A stretch of 35,060 nt of DNA. It comes from an uncultured Clostridia bacterium. Lineage in GTDB: Bacteria > Bacillota > Clostridia > Christensenellales > UBA3700. Made by a program: the position numbers and the translations under genes. Location: assembly GCA_944380395.1 (NCBI GenBank), contig CALWHM010000018.1, positions 1 through 35,060 of the forward strand. Reading direction: 5' to 3'. Positions 2,758 through 35,012 of this stretch are shown here, piece by piece. The number at the start of each line of letters is the position of its first letter. The first letter of the stretch is position 1. The notes under the pieces are model-generated. The model worked only from the letters and a program-made list of their open reading frames with translations, was not told the DNA's origin and made no database searches.

Positions 2758-3630
2758 CTAGGCGTAGAGCACGGTTATATCGTCATCTGCGGTTATTTGG
2801 GTCACTTTGTTTTCAAACTTGCTGTCACTGTACCAGCCCTGAAATTCCTTTTCTATAACGGTGCAATTCACCGTGCCGTCCGCATTGAGCGAAATGTTCG
2901 TGAACTCGTGCGCGTTTTCGGCAGGGTCGAGCAGCGTGAACTTGCCGTGCTTTTCCATCCATTCATCGGAGTATCCGGCGATGTTGCCTGCGGCGTTAAT
3001 GCCGCCGTTCATAATGTATTGCAAGGTGTGGGGATAGGTAAAGCGCACTCCCGCGGTGCATTTTGTGCCGAAAGCGTCCGTCCATTCAAAATCCATAGTG
3101 CCGGCGGAAGCTGAAGTAACGCCGCTTTTCACAAGGTCTTTGCTGAAACTGCCGTCCTCGTATTCCACCATATACACTATGTCATAGACGTTGGCTTCCT
3201 CACCTTCGGAAGATACGAAGAACTTGAAGTCTTCCTGATCGCTGCCCGTCAATAAAGCGATGGCTTGCATTACTTTGCCCTGAGTGTTTTCACCGTTTGA
3301 GTTGAAGACCACTCTTGTCACCTTATCGTTTTGGAAAGTTATCTGCGCGTAATTGTACGCCCCGCCCTTTTCCGCGTCGTCGGCGTTGAAGTATTCCCAT
3401 ACGTCGCCGTCGCCGCCATCGGCGGGATCGCCCAATTTATCCGTTACGGCGGCTTTGGAGTCGCCGATATTTATCTCATACACGGCAGATCTGCTCAAAC
3501 CGCCCATCATAAGCACGACCACGACAACCACGATTATCGCCACGACGACGACCGCCGCGGTGACGCCGATGATTATCTTTTTGCGTTTTTTATTGTTTGC
3601 GGGAGCCTTTTCTTGCTTTGCTGTATCCAT
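2758..3630 (-). CDS. Membrane-anchored protein with BamE/BLIP-like domain and interrupted Listeria-Bacteroides repeat
   Basis: This 290-residue product has a short Lys-rich cytoplasmic N-terminus (1-18), one membrane helix (about 19-43, a long Val/Ile run), and an extracytoplasmic part. Residues about 48-112 (INIGDSKAAVTDKLGDP, WEYF, then ITFQNDKVTRVVF) resemble the small BamE/SmpA/BLIP-like fold. Residues about 235-290 look like a Listeria-Bacteroides (InlB B-type) repeat with FQGWYSDSKF, which in the family ends in YAKW. Here it reads YA, then TAG, then W. The frame continues after the stop into the DUF6273 half, so the ancestral protein was probably about 575 residues. The ATG has GGAGGG 7 nt upstream and its own promoter. 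A surface role is inferred and the function is unknown. Confidence 0.8.
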   Translation of the reverse strand: MDTAKQEKAPANNKKRKKIIIGVTAAVVVVAIIVVVVVVLMMGGLSRSAVYEINIGDSKAAVTDKLGDPADGGDGDVWEYFNADDAEKGGAYNYAQITFQNDKVTRVVFNSNGENTQGKVMQAIALLTGSDQEDFKFFVSSEGEEANVYDIVYMVEYEDGSFSKDLVKSGVTSASAGTMDFEWTDAFGTKCTAGVRFTYPHTLQYIMNGGINAAGNIAGYSDEWMEKHGKFTLLDPAENAHEFTNISLNADGTVNCTVIEKEFQGWYSDSKFENKVTQITADDDITVLYA

Positions 3631-3653
3631 AAATTTCCCTCCTAGATGCGTTA

Positions 3654-3683
3654 ATTATAAAACAAAACGCATATTAAAGTCAA
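3654..3683 (-). promoter_or_regulatory. Promoter of the BamE-like/DUF6273 gene
   Basis: On the minus strand there is TTGACT (3678-3683), an 18-bp spacer and TATAAT (3654-3659). The leader is about 17 nt and contains GGAGGG. It lies in the gap after ispE, in which I see no terminator, so some readthrough from ispE is possible. Confidence 0.65.
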
Positions 3684-3689
3684 TATATA

Positions 3690-4520
3690 TTATATAATAT
3701 GTAAAACGCTTTTATATTTATAGCCTTGCAGGGCGCGCGCGCATTCTTCCGCCCCTTCAAAAGTATCGAAAACGGCAAAACAGGCGCTTCCGCTGCCCGT
3801 CATACAGGCGGCGGAGGAGAAATTTTTCAAATCGAACATGGTTGCCACTATGCTCGGGCAATGGTAGGTAGCGGAAAGAAACAGGGCGTTATACAATCCG
3901 TCTTCATATCTGCCGGTTTTTAATGAAGAAACGGTTTTATCAAACGAATTTTTAGGCTGCATACCCAAAGTATCGAAGTGGGAAAATACTTTGGCGGTGG
4001 TGGCTCCTATGCATTTTTGCGCGACCACGAAAAACTTGGTGCGCAAATTTTCCAAGCCCTCTACGGGGGTGAGTTCTTCGCCCCTGCCGCGGGCGCGCAT
4101 AATGCCGCCGTACATCATATATACCACGTCGCTGCCCACTTTCAAAGCCATCTCCTCAGCCGTTTCGGGCGATATGCCGAAGAGCTTTTTCGCCGCGTTG
4201 AGCACGCCCGCGCTGTCCGCGGAAGAGCCGCCCATTCCCGCGCCCACGGGTATTTTTTTGGCTATGGTTATGTCAAGTCCGCTGCCCGTATATTCACTCA
4301 CGAGTTTTGCCGTGCGGAAAGCCGTGTTTTCCTCACCCGCGGGCACGCCGTCCATTTTCACGCTCAAAACGCCCTTGTCCGCCTTTCTGACCGTGATGAC
4401 GTCGCCGCAATTCACCGTGACCATAAGCATATCCAAATCGTGATAGCCGTCAGGGCGCTTTCCCAAAACGTCCAGATATAAATTGAGTTTCGCGTTTGCA
4501 AGTACCGTCACTTTATCCAT
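3690..4520 (-). CDS. ispE: 4-diphosphocytidyl-2-C-methyl-D-erythritol kinase (IspE)
   Basis: IspE phosphorylates the 2-OH of 4-diphosphocytidyl-2-C-methylerythritol with ATP, in the cytoplasmic MEP route to isoprenoid precursors. The 276 residues fit the family. Family marks are ANAKLNLYLDV at the N-terminus with the active-site Lys11, a GHMP-kinase ATP loop PVGAGMGGSSADS at 91-103, the catalytic Asp131 in GSDVVYMMYGG, and the C-terminal GHMP motif MTGSGSACFA. The ATG at 4520 gives the usual N-terminus, only ten residues before Lys11, so a much later start is impossible. There is no ribosome binding site. Instead the -10 box ends 6 nt before the ATG, so the mRNA should be leaderless. The terminator just upstream isolates it from the DUF3794 gene, so it depends on this promoter. 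Confidence 0.95.
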   Translation of the reverse strand: MDKVTVLANAKLNLYLDVLGKRPDGYHDLDMLMVTVNCGDVITVRKADKGVLSVKMDGVPAGEENTAFRTAKLVSEYTGSGLDITIAKKIPVGAGMGGSSADSAGVLNAAKKLFGISPETAEEMALKVGSDVVYMMYGGIMRARGRGEELTPVEGLENLRTKFFVVAQKCIGATTAKVFSHFDTLGMQPKNSFDKTVSSLKTGRYEDGLYNALFLSATYHCPSIVATMFDLKNFSSAACMTGSGSACFAVFDTFEGAEECARALQGYKYKSVLHII

Positions 4521-4526
4521 ATATCT

Positions 4527-4555
4527 ATTGTAACGCGCAAACGCTTATAAGTCAA
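4527..4555 (-). promoter_or_regulatory. Promoter of ispE, leaderless geometry
   Basis: On the minus strand there is TTGACT (4550-4555), a 17-bp spacer and TACAAT (4527-4532). Six nucleotides then separate the -10 from the ATG (4518-4520), placing the expected start of transcription on the A of the start codon. Confidence 0.75.
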
Positions 4556-4582
4556 GGGACGCGGTAAAGTGCGCCCGCACGT

Positions 4583-4611
4583 AAAAACAAAAAGGGCGGC
4601 AAACGCCGCCC
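4583..4611 (-). terminator. Terminator of the DUF3794-LysM gene
   Basis: The perfect 7-bp stem GGGCGGC/GCCGCCC (4594-4600 with 4605-4611) has an AAAC loop as written on the + strand. Read on the minus strand it is followed by CTTTTTGTTTTTAC. It lies 20 nt after the stop codon and ahead of the ispE promoter. Confidence 0.85.
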
Positions 4612-4630
4612 CGCCGCTTTTTTATGAGCC

Positions 4631-6127
4631 TCAGCCCATACACCTGAACACGACTATCTTGTCCCCTTCCTTAACGCCTTTTTCCGCATAAGGATTTTGA
4701 GAAATTATGTCGCGTTCGGACACGTTGAGCGCTTTTGCCGCGTCCCAAAGCGTTTCCCCTTTTGCCACGGTGAACACGCTTATGCCGCCCATATCCAGCT
4801 CGCGCTCCTGTCCGACTTCTATATGCCCCACGCCGTAAACGGCGCAGTTGATTTTGCATTCCAATTGCAAAGATATGCTTGCGCACACCTCTGTTTCTCC
4901 CTCTCTGCGCACGCGGGACACCACGTCCGTAACTGCGACGCCCGTGCATTCTATCTGATTTTCCGCGTCGTCTTTAAGGTCGCAGGAGAAGGAGAAGGGG
5001 ATCTCAACGGCGCAGGAATCCACCGCTCCGCCGTCCGTTTCGTATATCTGACACACATTGAGCACGCCCTCGCAGACGAGTTTGGCGCCCTCGCGGTACA
5101 TATTGCTCACGCTTGCAAAAGAAGGAACGCCGGCAAGAACGCGCCTTATCCCCTCCGCTTGGATATCCGCGCTTCCGCATACGCGCTTGGATATAAATTT
5201 CATACCTACGGGCGCCGAGTAACTTTTTTCCGTGAAGGAAACTTCCAGCTCCGCGGCGGGAGAAAACACGTCCGCGACAACTTCTATCTCCTCTTCTTCA
5301 TACAGCCTGACGTCTACGCCCACGGTGACGTCCGTTTGCACCACGTTCTCCTCTTCACTGCCCGTAATGAGTATGGATACCCCTTTCACACACGCCCTAG
5401 CAGTGGCAATTAAGTCGGCTCTGCTGCCGCCTATCATCAGCTCTTCCGCAAATGGATGGGAAAACTGCTTGCTGCATATGCCGCCGTCGTCATAGACGAG
5501 TTGTATCCAAACTTCGCCTTCTGCGTACACGCTGCCCTCTTCCGCACGCACGGACGTTAGGAATACTTCCGCGCCGTAGCTGAGTATTTTCCCGATGGCT
5601 CCGCCCGCTTCGTACTCCTCAGTGACGGTAAAGGCGTCACTGCCGCCGCCTTTAAGGCATACCGCCTTTATATCCTGCGTGCGGGTGACCGCGCCCTGAA
5701 CATCGTCCACGAGCGGAGCGGTATACTCGCACTCCCCTTCAAAGTCGATATCAAGCACGGTCTGAACCTTTAAGGAAGAGCCGACTACTTCGCTTTGAAT
5801 ATCGGAAATACCCGCGCAGGCATATACGTTCATTCCCGCCACGGCGCCTTCCGCCGCCACCGTTCCCGTGACCTCCGTGACGTAATCGGCATTTGCAACG
5901 GCGCCCGCGCCGTCCGCATATATAACGCGCGTGGTCACTTCGCACACGACTTTCACGGCTCTCTCCTGCGCCTCCGCGCTCTTTACGTTCACGCCGCCGC
6001 TTACGCAATATATCTTGCTCACGCCGCCCGCGCTCATATCTATGCCGCATTCCGCGACCAGCTGACCTTTGCCAATCTTGTCCGTATATTTAACGGTCAC
6101 ATCGTTTTCACTTATCTGAATTGCCAT
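4631..6127 (-). CDS. DUF3794 and LysM domain protein, spore-envelope type
   Basis: The 498-residue protein has several DUF3794-like beta segments through residues 1-440 and a C-terminal LysM domain (about 452-498: FTVAKGETLWDAAKALNVSERDI, then NPYAEKGVKEGDKIVVF) that would bind peptidoglycan or a related glycan. This architecture is common in spore-forming Clostridia, where such proteins are predicted coat or cortex-associated components. The assignment to spores is by family, not shown here. It lacks a signal peptide, fitting assembly from the mother-cell cytoplasm. The ATG is preceded by GGAGGT 5 nt away. It is transcribed away from veg and followed by its own terminator. A TATAAT (6154-6159) is a possible -10 box but no good -35 box accompanies it. 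Confidence 0.85.
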   Translation of the reverse strand: MAIQISENDVTVKYTDKIGKGQLVAECGIDMSAGGVSKIYCVSGGVNVKSAEAQERAVKVVCEVTTRVIYADGAGAVANADYVTEVTGTVAAEGAVAGMNVYACAGISDIQSEVVGSSLKVQTVLDIDFEGECEYTAPLVDDVQGAVTRTQDIKAVCLKGGGSDAFTVTEEYEAGGAIGKILSYGAEVFLTSVRAEEGSVYAEGEVWIQLVYDDGGICSKQFSHPFAEELMIGGSRADLIATARACVKGVSILITGSEEENVVQTDVTVGVDVRLYEEEEIEVVADVFSPAAELEVSFTEKSYSAPVGMKFISKRVCGSADIQAEGIRRVLAGVPSFASVSNMYREGAKLVCEGVLNVCQIYETDGGAVDSCAVEIPFSFSCDLKDDAENQIECTGVAVTDVVSRVRREGETEVCASISLQLECKINCAVYGVGHIEVGQERELDMGGISVFTVAKGETLWDAAKALNVSERDIISQNPYAEKGVKEGDKIVVFRCMG

Positions 6128-6218
6128 ATATACCTCCGCTTGAAGTTCATTAAATTATATTGCCGAGGCAGTCCGTTTATGACGGAATAAAAATTTCCCG
6201 CGGGGGAATACTCGGAAT

Positions 6219-6449
6219 ATGAGAAAAGCAAAACTGCAGCTTGACGCGGTAAAAGCCGCGCTGGAAAAGATGCTGGGGGAACGCGTGGTGATGGACATCA
6301 ACCGCGGCAGAAATAAGTTTGAACGCTTTGAAGGCGTGCTCACGCACCTGTATCCGGGAATTTTCACCGTGGTTTCGGACGGAAAGGTTTCCTCTTATTC
6401 ATATAACGATATTCTTTCGCGCAATATAAGATTTTGCTCAAAGAAGTGA
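6219..6449 (+). CDS. veg: Veg family protein
   Basis: The 76 residues match the Veg family in length and pattern: KAALEKMLGERVVM, then a basic NRGRNKFERFEGVLTHLYP, FTVVSDGK and SYSYNDILSRNI. In Bacillus subtilis Veg stimulates biofilm matrix genes through an effect on SinR and is highly transcribed. Its molecular action is unclear, and whether that role holds here is unknown. The gene is divergent from the DUF3794 protein in a 91-bp gap. The only Shine-Dalgarno-like run (GGGGGA 6202-6207) lies 11 nt before ATG and can pair in a small hairpin (6195-6208). The nearer GGA at 6214-6216 is too close to act well. Translation may therefore be modest or regulated. Confidence 0.85.
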   Translation: MRKAKLQLDAVKAALEKMLGERVVMDINRGRNKFERFEGVLTHLYPGIFTVVSDGKVSSYSYNDILSRNIRFCSKK

Positions 6450-6459
6450 CGCTCCCCTA

Positions 6460-6488
6460 TTGTGTTTTCCGCCTATACTTGCTATAAT
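6460..6488 (+). promoter_or_regulatory. Promoter of the SDR gene, leaderless geometry
   Basis: There is TTGTGT (6460-6465), a 17-bp spacer and TATAAT (6483-6488). The ATG at 6495 begins after 6 further nucleotides, exactly where transcription should start. It begins about 10 bp after the veg stop codon. Confidence 0.75.
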
Positions 6489-6494
6489 ATAGGC

Positions 6495-7211
6495 ATGAAA
6501 ACAGCAATCGTTACGGGCGCTTCGGGCGGCATAGGTTCGCAGATAGCGCAGGAATTGAGCAAAAAAAATTACGCCGTCATCGGCTGTTACCGCAACGGCG
6601 CGGACGTATGCGAAGCCATGGCGGAAGACATCAACAAGTTCGGCGTGTTCGACCCTTACTGCCTGAACTTGCGCAGTGAGAACGAAACGGCGGAGCTTGT
6701 CAAATACGCCGTGAAGACTTACGGCAGGATAGACCTTTTGGTGAATTGCGCGGGTATAGGCGAAATAGCGCCGCTCACTGAGTGCAACCGCTGGGAAGAG
6801 ATCATAGACATAAATTTGAACGGAACGATAAGAATGTGCCGCGCTGTGCTCCCCCATATGTTCAGGCAGGGCGGCGGCAATATAATCAACATATCTTCCG
6901 TGTGGGGCGAATGCGGTTCCGCGTGCGAAGCGCCCTATTCCGCCAGCAAGGGCGGCGTGAACGCATTTACCAAAGCCCTTGCCAAAGAAACGGGCATTAT
7001 GGGCATACGCGTGAACGCGGTGGCGCCCGGCTTTATCGATACGGAAATGAACGCCTCTTTGACCGACCGCGACGTGGACGAAATCCGCGACGACATCCCC
7101 CTAAGGCGGCTGGGCACTCCCGCGGACGTGGCGAAAGCCGTGCTGTTCCTTACCGAAGCGGACTACGTCACGGGGCAGATAATCACCGTGGACGGGGGCT
7201 GGACGATATAG
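6495..7211 (+). CDS. Short-chain dehydrogenase/reductase, FabG-like
   Basis: This classical SDR of 238 residues is an NAD(P)-dependent oxidoreductase with a Rossmann fold. It has the cofactor loop TGASGGIG at 7-14, NCAG at 84-87, the catalytic Ser in NISSVWG (about 134-135), the Tyr148-x3-Lys152 pair in YSASK, and NAVAPGFIDTEM for cofactor closure. It resembles FabG (3-oxoacyl-ACP reductase), but the absence of other fatty-acid genes nearby leaves the substrate open. An in-frame start 33 nt upstream (6462) would lie inside the promoter. The ATG at 6495 fits the family N-terminus and the leaderless promoter. It ends with TAG and a hairpin terminator follows. Confidence 0.85.
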   Translation: MKTAIVTGASGGIGSQIAQELSKKNYAVIGCYRNGADVCEAMAEDINKFGVFDPYCLNLRSENETAELVKYAVKTYGRIDLLVNCAGIGEIAPLTECNRWEEIIDINLNGTIRMCRAVLPHMFRQGGGNIINISSVWGECGSACEAPYSASKGGVNAFTKALAKETGIMGIRVNAVAPGFIDTEMNASLTDRDVDEIRDDIPLRRLGTPADVAKAVLFLTEADYVTGQIITVDGGWTI

Positions 7212-7229
7212 CGCCTGACGAATATAGCA

Positions 7230-7257
7230 AAAAGCGCCTTGCGGGGCGCTTTCTTAT
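7230..7257 (+). terminator. Terminator of the SDR gene
   Basis: AAAGCGCC (7231-7238) pairs with GGCGCTTT (7245-7252) around a 6-nt loop, followed by CTTATTA. It lies 19 nt after the TAG stop codon. Confidence 0.75.
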
Positions 7258-7265
7258 TACCTTAT

Positions 7266-7293
7266 AAAAACGGGGAAGCAAAGCGCTTCCCCG
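7266..7293 (-). terminator. Terminator of the large lipoprotein gene
   Basis: A 9-bp perfect stem (7271-7279 with 7285-7293) and a 5-nt loop are followed on the minus strand by TTTTTATAAG. It faces the SDR terminator, so convergent transcription is closed on both sides. Confidence 0.85.
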
Positions 7294-7315
7294 CGTTAAT
7301 TTTTCCGAACCCGTA

Positions 7316-19977: not shown

Positions 19978-21071
19978 TGCCGCCCTCTTATAATGTCGTC
20001 CGCCGCCGCCATGCCGCTCACCCACGCCCAATGCAGGTTATATCCGCCGCATTCGCCGTCCACGTCAAGCATTTCGCCCACGCAATACAGATTTTTATGC
20101 AATAATGAGCGCATATTGCAGTCAAATTGGCTTATATCCGCGCCGCCGCACACGACCTGATTGTCCTTGTCCGCAAGCGTGACATTCGCCTTGCAGCTCT
20201 TTACAAGTTCAAGTCCGCCTTCGCGCAGCAGTTTATCCGCCAAAGCCTTGTGCAAAAGCCCGCAAAGCAGCCCCTGCCTGCCGCCGTATTCGCGGAATAT
20301 CTCCTCGCGGCTCATATCGGGAGCAAAGTCTATTTCAAGCTCCCCCGCGCAGTTGTTGCGCGCAAGAAAAGATGAAAGCCAAAAAGCGAGAATGCCGCTC
20401 ACGCCGTCGTCACGGAACAATATCTCTCCCCTGTCGCCTATTGTGCCGCACTTGGTGTGAAGCTTTGCGTAAACTTTCGCGCGCACGCCCTTCAAGCCTT
20501 TGAACGCGTCCGTTTTCAAATATGTGACGGCGGGCGCAAGAGGGGTGACCTTATGTCCCAAGCCCGAAAGCAATCCGTACGAAGCAACGCCACCGCCCGC
20601 GCCGCTGCCGCAGGCAAGCACTACGTTTTCCGCATATACCGTGCCGTGTTTGTGCTCTATTTTGAAGGAATTCCCCTGCTTTTTAATACTTTTTACGGGG
20701 CAGTCCGTTAGAACTTTCGCTCCGCAAACGGCGCCGAGCAGTATATTGAGCACGCTTCCGGAGTAATTGGAATGGGGAAAAACTCTCCCCTGCTCGTCCG
20801 TGCGGGTGATAAGCCCCAGCTTCCTCCACTGCTCTATTACCGCCTCAAACGGATATTTTTGCAACACGGGCGCTGCAAATTCGGGCACGTTGTACTTTTC
20901 CGCGCTCACGTTTACGTTGGACAGATTGCACCGCCCGTTGCCGCTGACCAATATCTTTTTACCCACGCGCGCGCCCGCTTCCAAGATAAGCGGAGTTATT
21001 CCGCCCCCGATAAGCCTTGCCGCACACATAAGCCCCGCGGCTCCGCCGCCCGCTATCACGACTTTTTCCAT
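19974..21071 (-). CDS. NAD(P)/FAD-dependent oxidoreductase, BaiN/HI0933 family
   Basis: A 365-residue flavoprotein. MEKVVIAGGGAAGLMCAARL is the FAD dinucleotide motif, VGKKILVSGNGRCNLSN (about 43-59) is a hallmark of this family, VVLACGSG and GYGLL-type segments follow, and CVGEMLDVDGECGGYNLHWAWVSG near the end completes the FAD site. Members include BaiN, proposed in bile-acid 7-dehydroxylation, but most homologues have no proven substrate and no other bai genes are seen here. The in-frame codons before 21071 lie between the -10 box and the ATG, so 21071 is the start. There is no ribosome binding site and the mRNA should be leaderless. It heads a two-gene flavoprotein operon with the COG2509 protein. 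Confidence 0.88.
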   Translation of the reverse strand: MEKVVIAGGGAAGLMCAARLIGGGITPLILEAGARVGKKILVSGNGRCNLSNVNVSAEKYNVPEFAAPVLQKYPFEAVIEQWRKLGLITRTDEQGRVFPHSNYSGSVLNILLGAVCGAKVLTDCPVKSIKKQGNSFKIEHKHGTVYAENVVLACGSGAGGGVASYGLLSGLGHKVTPLAPAVTYLKTDAFKGLKGVRAKVYAKLHTKCGTIGDRGEILFRDDGVSGILAFWLSSFLARNNCAGELEIDFAPDMSREEIFREYGGRQGLLCGLLHKALADKLLREGGLELVKSCKANVTLADKDNQVVCGGADISQFDCNMRSLLHKNLYCVGEMLDVDGECGGYNLHWAWVSGMAAADDIIRGRQ

Positions 21072-21077
21072 AGCCCA

Positions 21078-21106
21078 AGTATACCACAAAACATTGCTTT
21101 TTGCAA
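21078..21106 (-). promoter_or_regulatory. Promoter of the flavoprotein operon, leaderless geometry
   Basis: On the minus strand there is TTGCAA (21101-21106), a 17-bp spacer and TATACT (21078-21083), then exactly 6 nt to the ATG (21069-21071). It begins just after the stop codon of the FtsX gene upstream, with no terminator between them. Confidence 0.75.
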
Positions 21107-33703: not shown

Positions 33704-34977
33704 AGCGTTCTCCTCACGGATATATACAGGCAGTCGTCGCCTTCTTTTACTTTCAGATTTTGGGATATTTCCATTCCCGCTACCACGCATATGTCGCTGC
33801 CGTCAGCCAAAACGGGAATGTGCGGGCGCAGATATTTGGGCACTTTTTTATCCGTGAACCAATCGCCCAAGGAGCGCCGCCCTCCGCCGAACGGCAAGAA
33901 CCTGTCCCCGTCACGCCGCGTGCGCCACACAGCGTTTTTGGGCACCGCCGCCGCATTTATGCGCAGCGCGCCCGGCTCTGCTTTTTTGGATACGGTCACT
34001 TCGTATTCGCCCAGCACGGCTCCGCCCGTTTCAAAGGGCAATTCCTTTGTGAATACGGGCGTTTCGCGGTAAAAGTGCACCTCGTCCCCCACCCTGCACG
34101 CGCGGAATGCGGACGGAAGATATACGGTGGAACCGTTTTCACTTTCCGCAAGCGCGAAGATGGCTGCGATGTGATCGCTTGTCACGTCCACCCTTCCGCC
34201 TATCCTGCCCAGCGCTTCAAACACAGCCGTTTCACCTGTCACTCCGTGCAGGCAGTCTATTTCCAGCACAGCCGCCTGCCCTTCGAGCTTGGCTTGCGGA
34301 GAGTGCGCGGCGATGTATTCGTAAGCCTGAAAAGCGCGTTTGCCCAACATAGATATGCCGCTTTTTGCGTTGGGAAAGCGGCTTTCTATCATAGGCAGCA
34401 ACACTTTGCGCACATAGTTGCGGGAAAATCCCGTATCGTTATTGGTCGCGTCCTCACGGTACTCCACGCCTTTTTTAACGGCGTATTCCGCTATTCTCTC
34501 CGCCGTAACGTCGATAAGCGGACGATACACCACCCCGTCGTCGCGCGGAATGCCGCACAGCCCCTTAAGTCCGCTGCCGCGGAAAATGTGCATAAGTATG
34601 CTTTCGGCGTTGTCGTCCGCGTGGTGTGCGGTTAGCACCCTGTCCGCCATGCCGCATTTGACTATACGCTCAAACTCGCGCCGCCTCAAAATGCGCGCGC
34701 CCTGCTCTATGCCGTAGCCGTGAGTGCGGCAGAAGGACTTGCAGTCCAACTCCACTATGTCGCACGCGATGCCGCGCTCCTTGCAATAAGCCGCCACAAA
34801 GGCGCTGTCCGCGCTCGATTCTTCCCCGCGCAGTCCGTGTTCAAAGTTGAGCACGGTAAAGGCGGGAAGCCTGCCCGCGTTTTCAATGAAAAAGTGCAGC
34901 ATACACATAGAATCCCTTCCGCCGGATACGGCAAGGACCACTTTTTTGAAATTACTTAATTCTCCCGCGTGTATCAT
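33700..34977 (-). CDS. tilS: tRNA(Ile)-lysidine synthase
   Basis: TilS attaches lysine to C34 of tRNA-Ile(CAU) with ATP, changing codon reading from AUG to AUA. The 425-residue protein has the PP-loop SGGRDS at 18-23, FEHGLRGEES, LTAHHADDNAES, GLKGLCGIPRDDGVVYRPL and TNNDTGFSRNYVRKVLLP, all TilS family marks. A middle domain and the C-terminal TilS_C domain with FLPFGGGRRSLGDWFTDKKVP follow. The ATG at 34977 lies only 6 nt after the -10 box and no ribosome binding site precedes it. A later start would remove residues next to the PP-loop. It heads an operon of five overlapping genes, and the whole operon would be read from a leaderless mRNA. Confidence 0.95.
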   Translation of the reverse strand: MIHAGELSNFKKVVLAVSGGRDSMCMLHFFIENAGRLPAFTVLNFEHGLRGEESSADSAFVAAYCKERGIACDIVELDCKSFCRTHGYGIEQGARILRRREFERIVKCGMADRVLTAHHADDNAESILMHIFRGSGLKGLCGIPRDDGVVYRPLIDVTAERIAEYAVKKGVEYREDATNNDTGFSRNYVRKVLLPMIESRFPNAKSGISMLGKRAFQAYEYIAAHSPQAKLEGQAAVLEIDCLHGVTGETAVFEALGRIGGRVDVTSDHIAAIFALAESENGSTVYLPSAFRACRVGDEVHFYRETPVFTKELPFETGGAVLGEYEVTVSKKAEPGALRINAAAVPKNAVWRTRRDGDRFLPFGGGRRSLGDWFTDKKVPKYLRPHIPVLADGSDICVVAGMEISQNLKVKEGDDCLYISVRRTL

Positions 34978-34983
34978 ATATTA

Positions 34984-35012
34984 ATTATAGCGCAAAAAAC
35001 GCTCCGGGGCAA
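34984..35012 (-). promoter_or_regulatory. Promoter of the tilS operon, leaderless geometry
   Basis: On the minus strand there is TTGCCC (35007-35012), a 17-bp spacer and TATAAT (34984-34989), then 6 nt to the ATG (34975-34977). The start of transcription should coincide with the A of the start codon. Confidence 0.75.

Follow-up and report, generated by a model that had tools for sequence, protein, structure and literature searches.

Orthologue-conserved promoters abutting the start codon point to a set of probably leaderless genes within one family of Christensenellales-like Clostridia

Leaderless genes are already known in other bacteria, and 21.6% of bacterial species are predicted users of leaderless transcription, as cited by StartLink+ (PMC9581028). 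Among the Firmicutes, the survey of Zheng et al. (2011; PMC3160421) gives leaderless genes in 56 of 209 genomes, at 4.2 (2.4, 16.6) per cent as printed there, concentrated in Lactobacillales and Mycoplasma. The genes with a TA-like signal in that survey share with those described here a Pribnow-type box near the start that replaces the Shine–Dalgarno (SD) motif, and the presence of SD-led genes in the same genome; unlike in the survey as published, the lineage here is another branch, with conservation followed gene by gene among orthologues. The -10-adjacent ORFs reported from Deinococcus–Thermus (PMC12340547) likewise carry a box a few bases before the start at a specific spacing and are leaderless, as the genes here would be. 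The leaderless transcriptome of Mycobacterium tuberculosis (PMC3898074) provides a further parallel, in that transcription sets out from the start codon's first base, a property that the present genes probably share. This organism belongs, unlike the present lineage, to the high-GC Actinobacteria. The leaderless share of its genes is reportedly much larger.

Closer in phylogeny are three reports from mapped clostridia, which give 15 potentially leaderless genes in C. difficile (PMC7438776), about 2–3% of transcripts as potentially leaderless in three solventogenic strains (PMC9045289), and 4% of intergenic sense starts as potentially leaderless in C. phytofermentans, where a further start upstream and a typical ribosome binding site were the rule for such genes (PMC5171806). 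Class and low percentages are thus common to these organisms and the present lineage, although their figures were measured and ours are read from sequence alone. Given such percentages, our own estimate of about 5% is not unusual; the difference lies in the conservation of the geometry and the exclusion of SD motifs, ribosome binding sites being generally kept in the C. phytofermentans report (PMC5171806). Among open-licence papers, we found no report of leaderless genes for this lineage, Christensenellales included.

The sequence analysed here, referred to as the window, is a stretch of 35,060 nt from an uncultured Clostridia bacterium, and it holds four members of a class that is genuine and conserved and whose genes are presumably leaderless. 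The original prediction had claimed that four units in the window share one geometry and that none has a ribosome binding site. Scanning both strands for TTGnnn-17-TAnnnT-6-[A/G/T]TG recovered these four units (start codons at 4520 on the minus strand, 6495 on the plus strand, and 21071 and 34977 on the minus strand; all ATG), every one of them close to a long ORF's 5' end or directly at it (Table 1), and an SD-like motif was present at 0/4. Nor was such a motif found at in-frame alternative starts within the first 40 codons of the four genes. Among 200 dinucleotide shuffles of the window the mean was 0.28 sites and the maximum 2, so that 0/200 reached four, and box-to-start distances from 0 to 30 other than 6 gave 0 or 1 site each in the window itself. 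The gene identities proposed earlier were also borne out, with matches to TIGR00154 for ispE, to TIGR02432/02433 for tilS and to TIGR00275 ('aminoacetone oxidase family') for the BaiN-like flavoprotein; the short-chain dehydrogenase/reductase (SDR) gene scored just over the NCBIfam cut-off for the EF-P 5-aminopentanone reductase YmfI (238.6 vs 238). A simple gene caller placed the start of the SDR gene 33 nt too far upstream, orthologues supporting the ATG at 6495. Of the genes with GGAG leaders that the original prediction named as contrasts, leuS was the one examined; it is SD-led in the window.

Table 1. Coordinates of genes and promoter elements at the four units in the window
Feature	Position	Strand	Basis
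ATG of ispE, A = inferred transcription start	4518..4520	-	TIGR00154 (NCBIfam) match begins at residue 5
6-nt discriminator AGATAT of ispE	4521..4526	-	sequence
-10 box TACAAT of ispE	4527..4532	-	pattern and promoter scan; same distance in 6/7 genus genomes
-35 box TTGACT of ispE	4550..4555	-	pattern and promoter scan; TTGACTT kept in those 6 genomes
Terminator-like hairpin and T run, between SPOCS-domain gene and ispE promoter	4593..4612	-	consensus scan
ispE, 276 aa	3690..4520	-	ORF; NCBIfam TIGR00154
-35 box TTGTGT of YmfI-like SDR	6460..6465	+	pattern scan
-10 box TATAAT of YmfI-like SDR, 6 nt ahead of ATG at 6495	6483..6488	+	pattern scan
YmfI-like SDR, 238 aa	6495..7211	+	ORF, NCBIfam; orthologues start at same residue
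-10 box TATACT of TIGR00275 flavoprotein, 6 nt ahead of ATG at 21071	21078..21083	-	pattern scan
-35 box TTGCAA of TIGR00275 flavoprotein	21101..21106	-	pattern scan
TIGR00275 (BaiN-like) flavoprotein, 365 aa	19974..21071	-	ORF, NCBIfam
-10 box TATAAT of tilS, 6 nt ahead of ATG at 34977	34984..34989	-	pattern scan
-35 box TTGCCC of tilS	35007..35012	-	pattern scan
tilS, 425 aa	33700..34977	-	ORF, NCBIfam TIGR02432/02433

Our working hypothesis, which we hold to be highly probable, is that sigma-A promoters abut the ATG at these genes, so that the mRNA would start on the A of AUG, leaderless and free of an SD motif, and that a large part of the family has retained this arrangement. The four sites would be ordinary vegetative promoters of the sigma-A/sigma-70 type, comprising -35 and -10 boxes together with a TRTG-like stretch. 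An A separated from the -10 box by six bases lies at the normal start point of a sigma-A promoter, and pyrimidine followed by purine is the usual dinucleotide at which transcription starts. The A of the ATG, as the seventh base after the box, would take up this point, and the mRNA would consequently begin with AUG and have no leader. Translation from such a 5' AUG would proceed without SD pairing, most likely through 70S ribosomes binding the 5' end, as established for leaderless mRNAs of other bacteria; the transcription start on the A is what we infer from the layout.

The genome from which the window derives is 88% complete and consists of 66 contigs with a total of 1.78 Mb. The strict pattern TTGACN-17-TANAAT-6-ATG gave 11 whole-genome matches against 0 for the reversed pattern, with T before the ATG in 11/11. 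The reversed-pattern control was set aside as not stringent enough, since a strong promoter may have an ATG next to it by chance alone, and was replaced by other distances and by out-of-frame ATGs, counted over 41 stretches (835 kb; 592 called genes, of which 532 were usable). For in-frame ATGs in these 835 kb, near-consensus -10 boxes at distances 0 to 14 numbered 9, 6, 8, 1, 8, 7, 31, 10, 6, 9, 4, 8, 5, 7 and 9. The genome-wide excess at exactly this distance that the original prediction called for was thus present, with 31 boxes at 6 nt against a mean of 6.6 at 10–19 nt (Poisson p 5e-12); out-of-frame ATGs in the same 835 kb showed no peak, with 3 at distance 6 against their own mean of 2.9. 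A second, broader rise near 28–29 nt (15 and 15) lies where the leadered class is expected. The excess at 6 nt comes to about 24 of 532 genes, or about 5% of those in the genome, and roughly a fifth of the 31 sites may therefore be due to chance. An SD-like motif was seen at 1/31 of these sites, and under a looser definition an SD motif lay near a candidate start in 300 of the 532 genes. We suppose that about 5% of the genes in this genome would be leaderless, the rest being SD-led, downstream in operons or otherwise started. As T precedes 286 of the 532 called starts in any case, T at -1 was rejected as sole evidence; the absence of purines at -1 is the stronger sign.

The strongest evidence for the proposed class comes from orthologues. 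A total of 120 loci was assembled from the best 30 orthologues of each of the four genes, own copy included: for ispE the best 30 of 55 genomes matched, including G044, which belongs to a different family of the order, and for tilS, the flavoprotein and YmfI the best 30 of 36 genomes with a match each. The box stood at 6 nt in 82/120 loci and at 7 nt in 12/120, the next commonest distance accounting for 10 loci; by gene, a box at 6 or 7 nt was found in 20/30 (ispE), 28/30 (tilS), 20/30 (flavoprotein) and 26/30 (YmfI). No SD motif occurred in the 94 loci with a box at 6–7 nt, compared with 13/26 loci without. The base before the start in the 94 boxed loci was T in 74, C in 19, G in 1 and A in 0, i.e. 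a pyrimidine in 93/94, which is what a transcription start on the A of the ATG would predict.

When the 82 starts with a 6-nt distance were aligned, TTGA at -35, a TRTG-like stretch and a -1 base that was always T or C stood out, none of which had been selected on, while the -10 columns owe part of their uniformity to the way in which rows were selected. The middle of the spacer and most of the discriminator were near random. The first base of the start codon was A in 98% of these starts and the rest were GTG, ATG having been preferred when starts were chosen. The orthologue loci thus display the features of sigma-A/sigma-70 promoters (-35 TTGa, spacer of 16–18, TATAAT) together with those of leaderless genes, namely a -10 box at a fixed distance that would put +1 on the start codon, an ATG start and no SD motif. 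A TTG at 16–18 nt spacing from the box was found in 71/94 loci, so that the -10 motif is not the sole core element here, unlike in Deinococcus–Thermus, where the -35 box is described as an added enhancer and about 30% of ORFs are concerned, against about 5% of genes here (PMC12340547). The 6-nt peak was present in orthologues from five genera of the family; the sixth, g5, contributed only two loci, one with a box at 7 nt and one SD-led. The regular class proposed for this lineage on the strength of four spacings is accordingly upheld by the one-base peak at 6 nt, the conservation among orthologues, the lack of SD motifs and the pyrimidine at -1, yet it is a minority of genes (about 24 of 532) and is not unique to the lineage.

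Were transcription to begin 1–3 nt ahead of the ATG, or to be spread over several bases, the result would be a very short leader with SD-independent initiation. Start points 7–9 bases past the box are normal for bacterial RNA polymerase, and the 12 of 94 orthologue boxes that lie at 7 nt and not at 6 would suit such a reading. Since the other 82 lie at exactly 6 nt, and the T or C followed by A falls exactly at the ATG, we consider a short leader of this kind unlikely.

A slightly smaller chance attaches to the view that the boxes form a second, minor promoter, the main transcript coming from further upstream with an SD-less leader whose translation would depend on S1 or on AU-rich sequence. 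The C. phytofermentans report is in its favour, as the potentially leaderless genes there generally had another upstream start and a ribosome binding site (PMC5171806). Against it stands the division of SD motifs between boxed and unboxed loci given above, and also the arrangement at ispE, where the site (minus strand, 4518–4555) reads TTGACT-17-TACAAT-AGATAT-ATG directly in the window sequence. On the ispE strand, between the upstream gene and the ATG, the scan detected just one hairpin region and this single promoter; 37 nt separate the terminator-like hairpin from the -35 box, and no second promoter was found between the two by consensus scan. The terminator scan near ispE returned 8 terminator-like sites in the scanned region against 5.2 in shuffles. 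Promoter-like sites at 3600–7300 showed no excess in the promoter scan (3 vs 3.2 in shuffles), and a site taken singly, apart from the geometry, therefore carries little weight. The gene upstream of ispE (4634–6127, minus strand) encodes a SipL/SPOCS domain.

That AT-rich upstream sequence or wrongly chosen start codons produced the pattern by coincidence is barely credible, for although T before ATG is common in the genome and the ispE of G006, the most distant member of the genus, has no box, the peak is one base wide, occurs in frame only and is absent at leuS, the box is kept where spacer and discriminator have diverged, and the chosen starts agree with profile starts and with orthologues. 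For the leuS control (best 30 of 35 close matches, with the first 264 codons as query), -10 boxes at 4–11 nt were found in 0/30 orthologues and an SD motif in 20/30.

Under the preferred reading, promoters abutting the ATG, some genes would occur both in leaderless and in SD-led form within the family. For the flavoprotein, the box was absent in 9/9 loci examined in genus g4, and 8 of these had an SD motif; the nine g4 loci of ispE were mixed, in that an SD motif occurred in four and a box at 7 nt in one, two more had their box at 8 or 9 nt, and the remaining two had neither. In the same genus, a box at 6 nt was present in all five tilS loci and all nine YmfI loci. Among 27 more distant genomes (L131–L157), ispE had a box at 6 or 7 nt in 0/27 and an SD motif in 21/27. 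A fifth gene, encoding an NFACT protein, is a leaderless candidate in the same genome outside the window; it was picked as the first protein of the Pfam run described below, its annotation being known beforehand. In the best 30 of 34 orthologues, a box at 6 nt was found in 8/30, namely in 6 of the 7 members of the window's genus and in two genomes of g6. SD motifs occurred in 0/8 boxed loci as against 15/22 others, and in 15/23 in genomes outside the window's genus. Pooled over 150 loci of the five genes, an SD motif accompanied 0/102 boxes and was present at 28/48 loci without one. The same orthologous gene is therefore of leaderless type or SD-led in sister genera, as seen for NFACT and for the TIGR00275 flavoprotein, and a change in the mode of translation start can be traced stepwise. 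Two NFACT orthologue matches (G003:C1:174891-176609 and G033:C28:2473-4200) have one internal TAA each.

Pfam was run on 20 of the 27 sites with the layout in the same genome outside the window, seven being left out as looking like chance. The matches were to TsaE, MnmE, thymidylate kinase, NFACT, Fur, an HD phosphohydrolase and a ParA/MinD-type ATPase; to Asp23, an IMS polymerase, an integrase-type recombinase, a glycosidase, an esterase and a PadR regulator; to a cation-type ATPase, a membrane transporter, a BspA-type repeat protein and a metallophosphatase; and to a phosphoribosyltransferase with a zinc ribbon, which we take to be ComFC-like, and an SH3_3 protein, with one protein lacking a match. 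Genes for tRNA or translation upkeep that have the layout are those of MnmE type (L010:3064-4392), TsaE type (L026:2994-3404) and NFACT type (L024:2444-4165), as well as tilS and ymfI. A functional bias towards tRNA modification among the layout genes is possible, some of the sites being expected by chance. It is a further and rather doubtful step to suppose that leaderless initiation in this family picks out a conserved set of genes, weighted towards tRNA modification and the upkeep of translation, whose own translation would go up or down jointly with the available 70S ribosomes or initiation factors; if true, this would be a regulon set by the mode of translation start and not by a DNA-binding regulator. 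A more practical consequence concerns gene finding, in that tools expecting an SD motif may misplace the starts of such genes.

The spread of the layout was assessed in whole genomes by the ratio of strong promoters with an ATG at 5–7 nt to those with an ATG at 10–12 nt. The 36 genomes of the family gave 478 vs 269, and the 33 genomes without genus g5 gave 442 vs 204; in g5 the ratio was reversed (36 vs 65), driven by the 38 matches of G010. This genome has 38 strong-promoter matches at 10–12 nt, compared with 1–17 in the other 35 family genomes, and they perhaps reflect a repeated element carrying a promoter. The excess was weak in 24 other members of the order (186 vs 149), and 248 other genomes of the phylum gave 1480 vs 1234, the excess in the family without g5 being the stronger of the two (Fisher p 9e-11). 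The genome of the window gave 23 vs 12, an excess equalled or topped in 5 of the 248 phylum genomes. These five are G144, G179 (family f93), G070, G245 (family f41) and G203 (family f58), with G288, G190 and G156, from the same two families, close behind; the five are possibly other lineages with leaderless genes. G144 gave 21 vs 7, but an in-frame count over 80 kb of it found 2 sites against 1.9.

In small samples, in-frame counts at 6 nt against the mean were 6 vs 2.1 in G002 of the same genus, 6 vs 0.8 in G008 and 8 vs 3.9 in G018 of the same family, and 4 vs 2.1, without T at -1, in G201 of the same class. G050, from the order, had 0 vs 0.8 in 6 of 10 stretches, the four with known sites, some of them picked for those sites, having been dropped, which biases the count downwards. 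As g5 and most other families of the order have no clear excess and a few unrelated genomes equal it, the trait is neither universal nor unique, but within the family it stands out clearly from the weak excess seen more generally. Much of this family of Christensenellales-like Clostridia has retained the arrangement at the same housekeeping genes. Uncultured gut Clostridia of this branch would thereby join the bacteria with leaderless expression, which here would be a conserved trait instead of a handful of isolated cases. The named relatives of the window's ispE are Candidatus Alloclostridium intestinigallinarum (85%), placed by NCBI in Clostridia incertae sedis, and Candidatus Caccalectryoclostridium excrementigallinarum (77%), placed in Christensenellales; both names point to the fowl gut.
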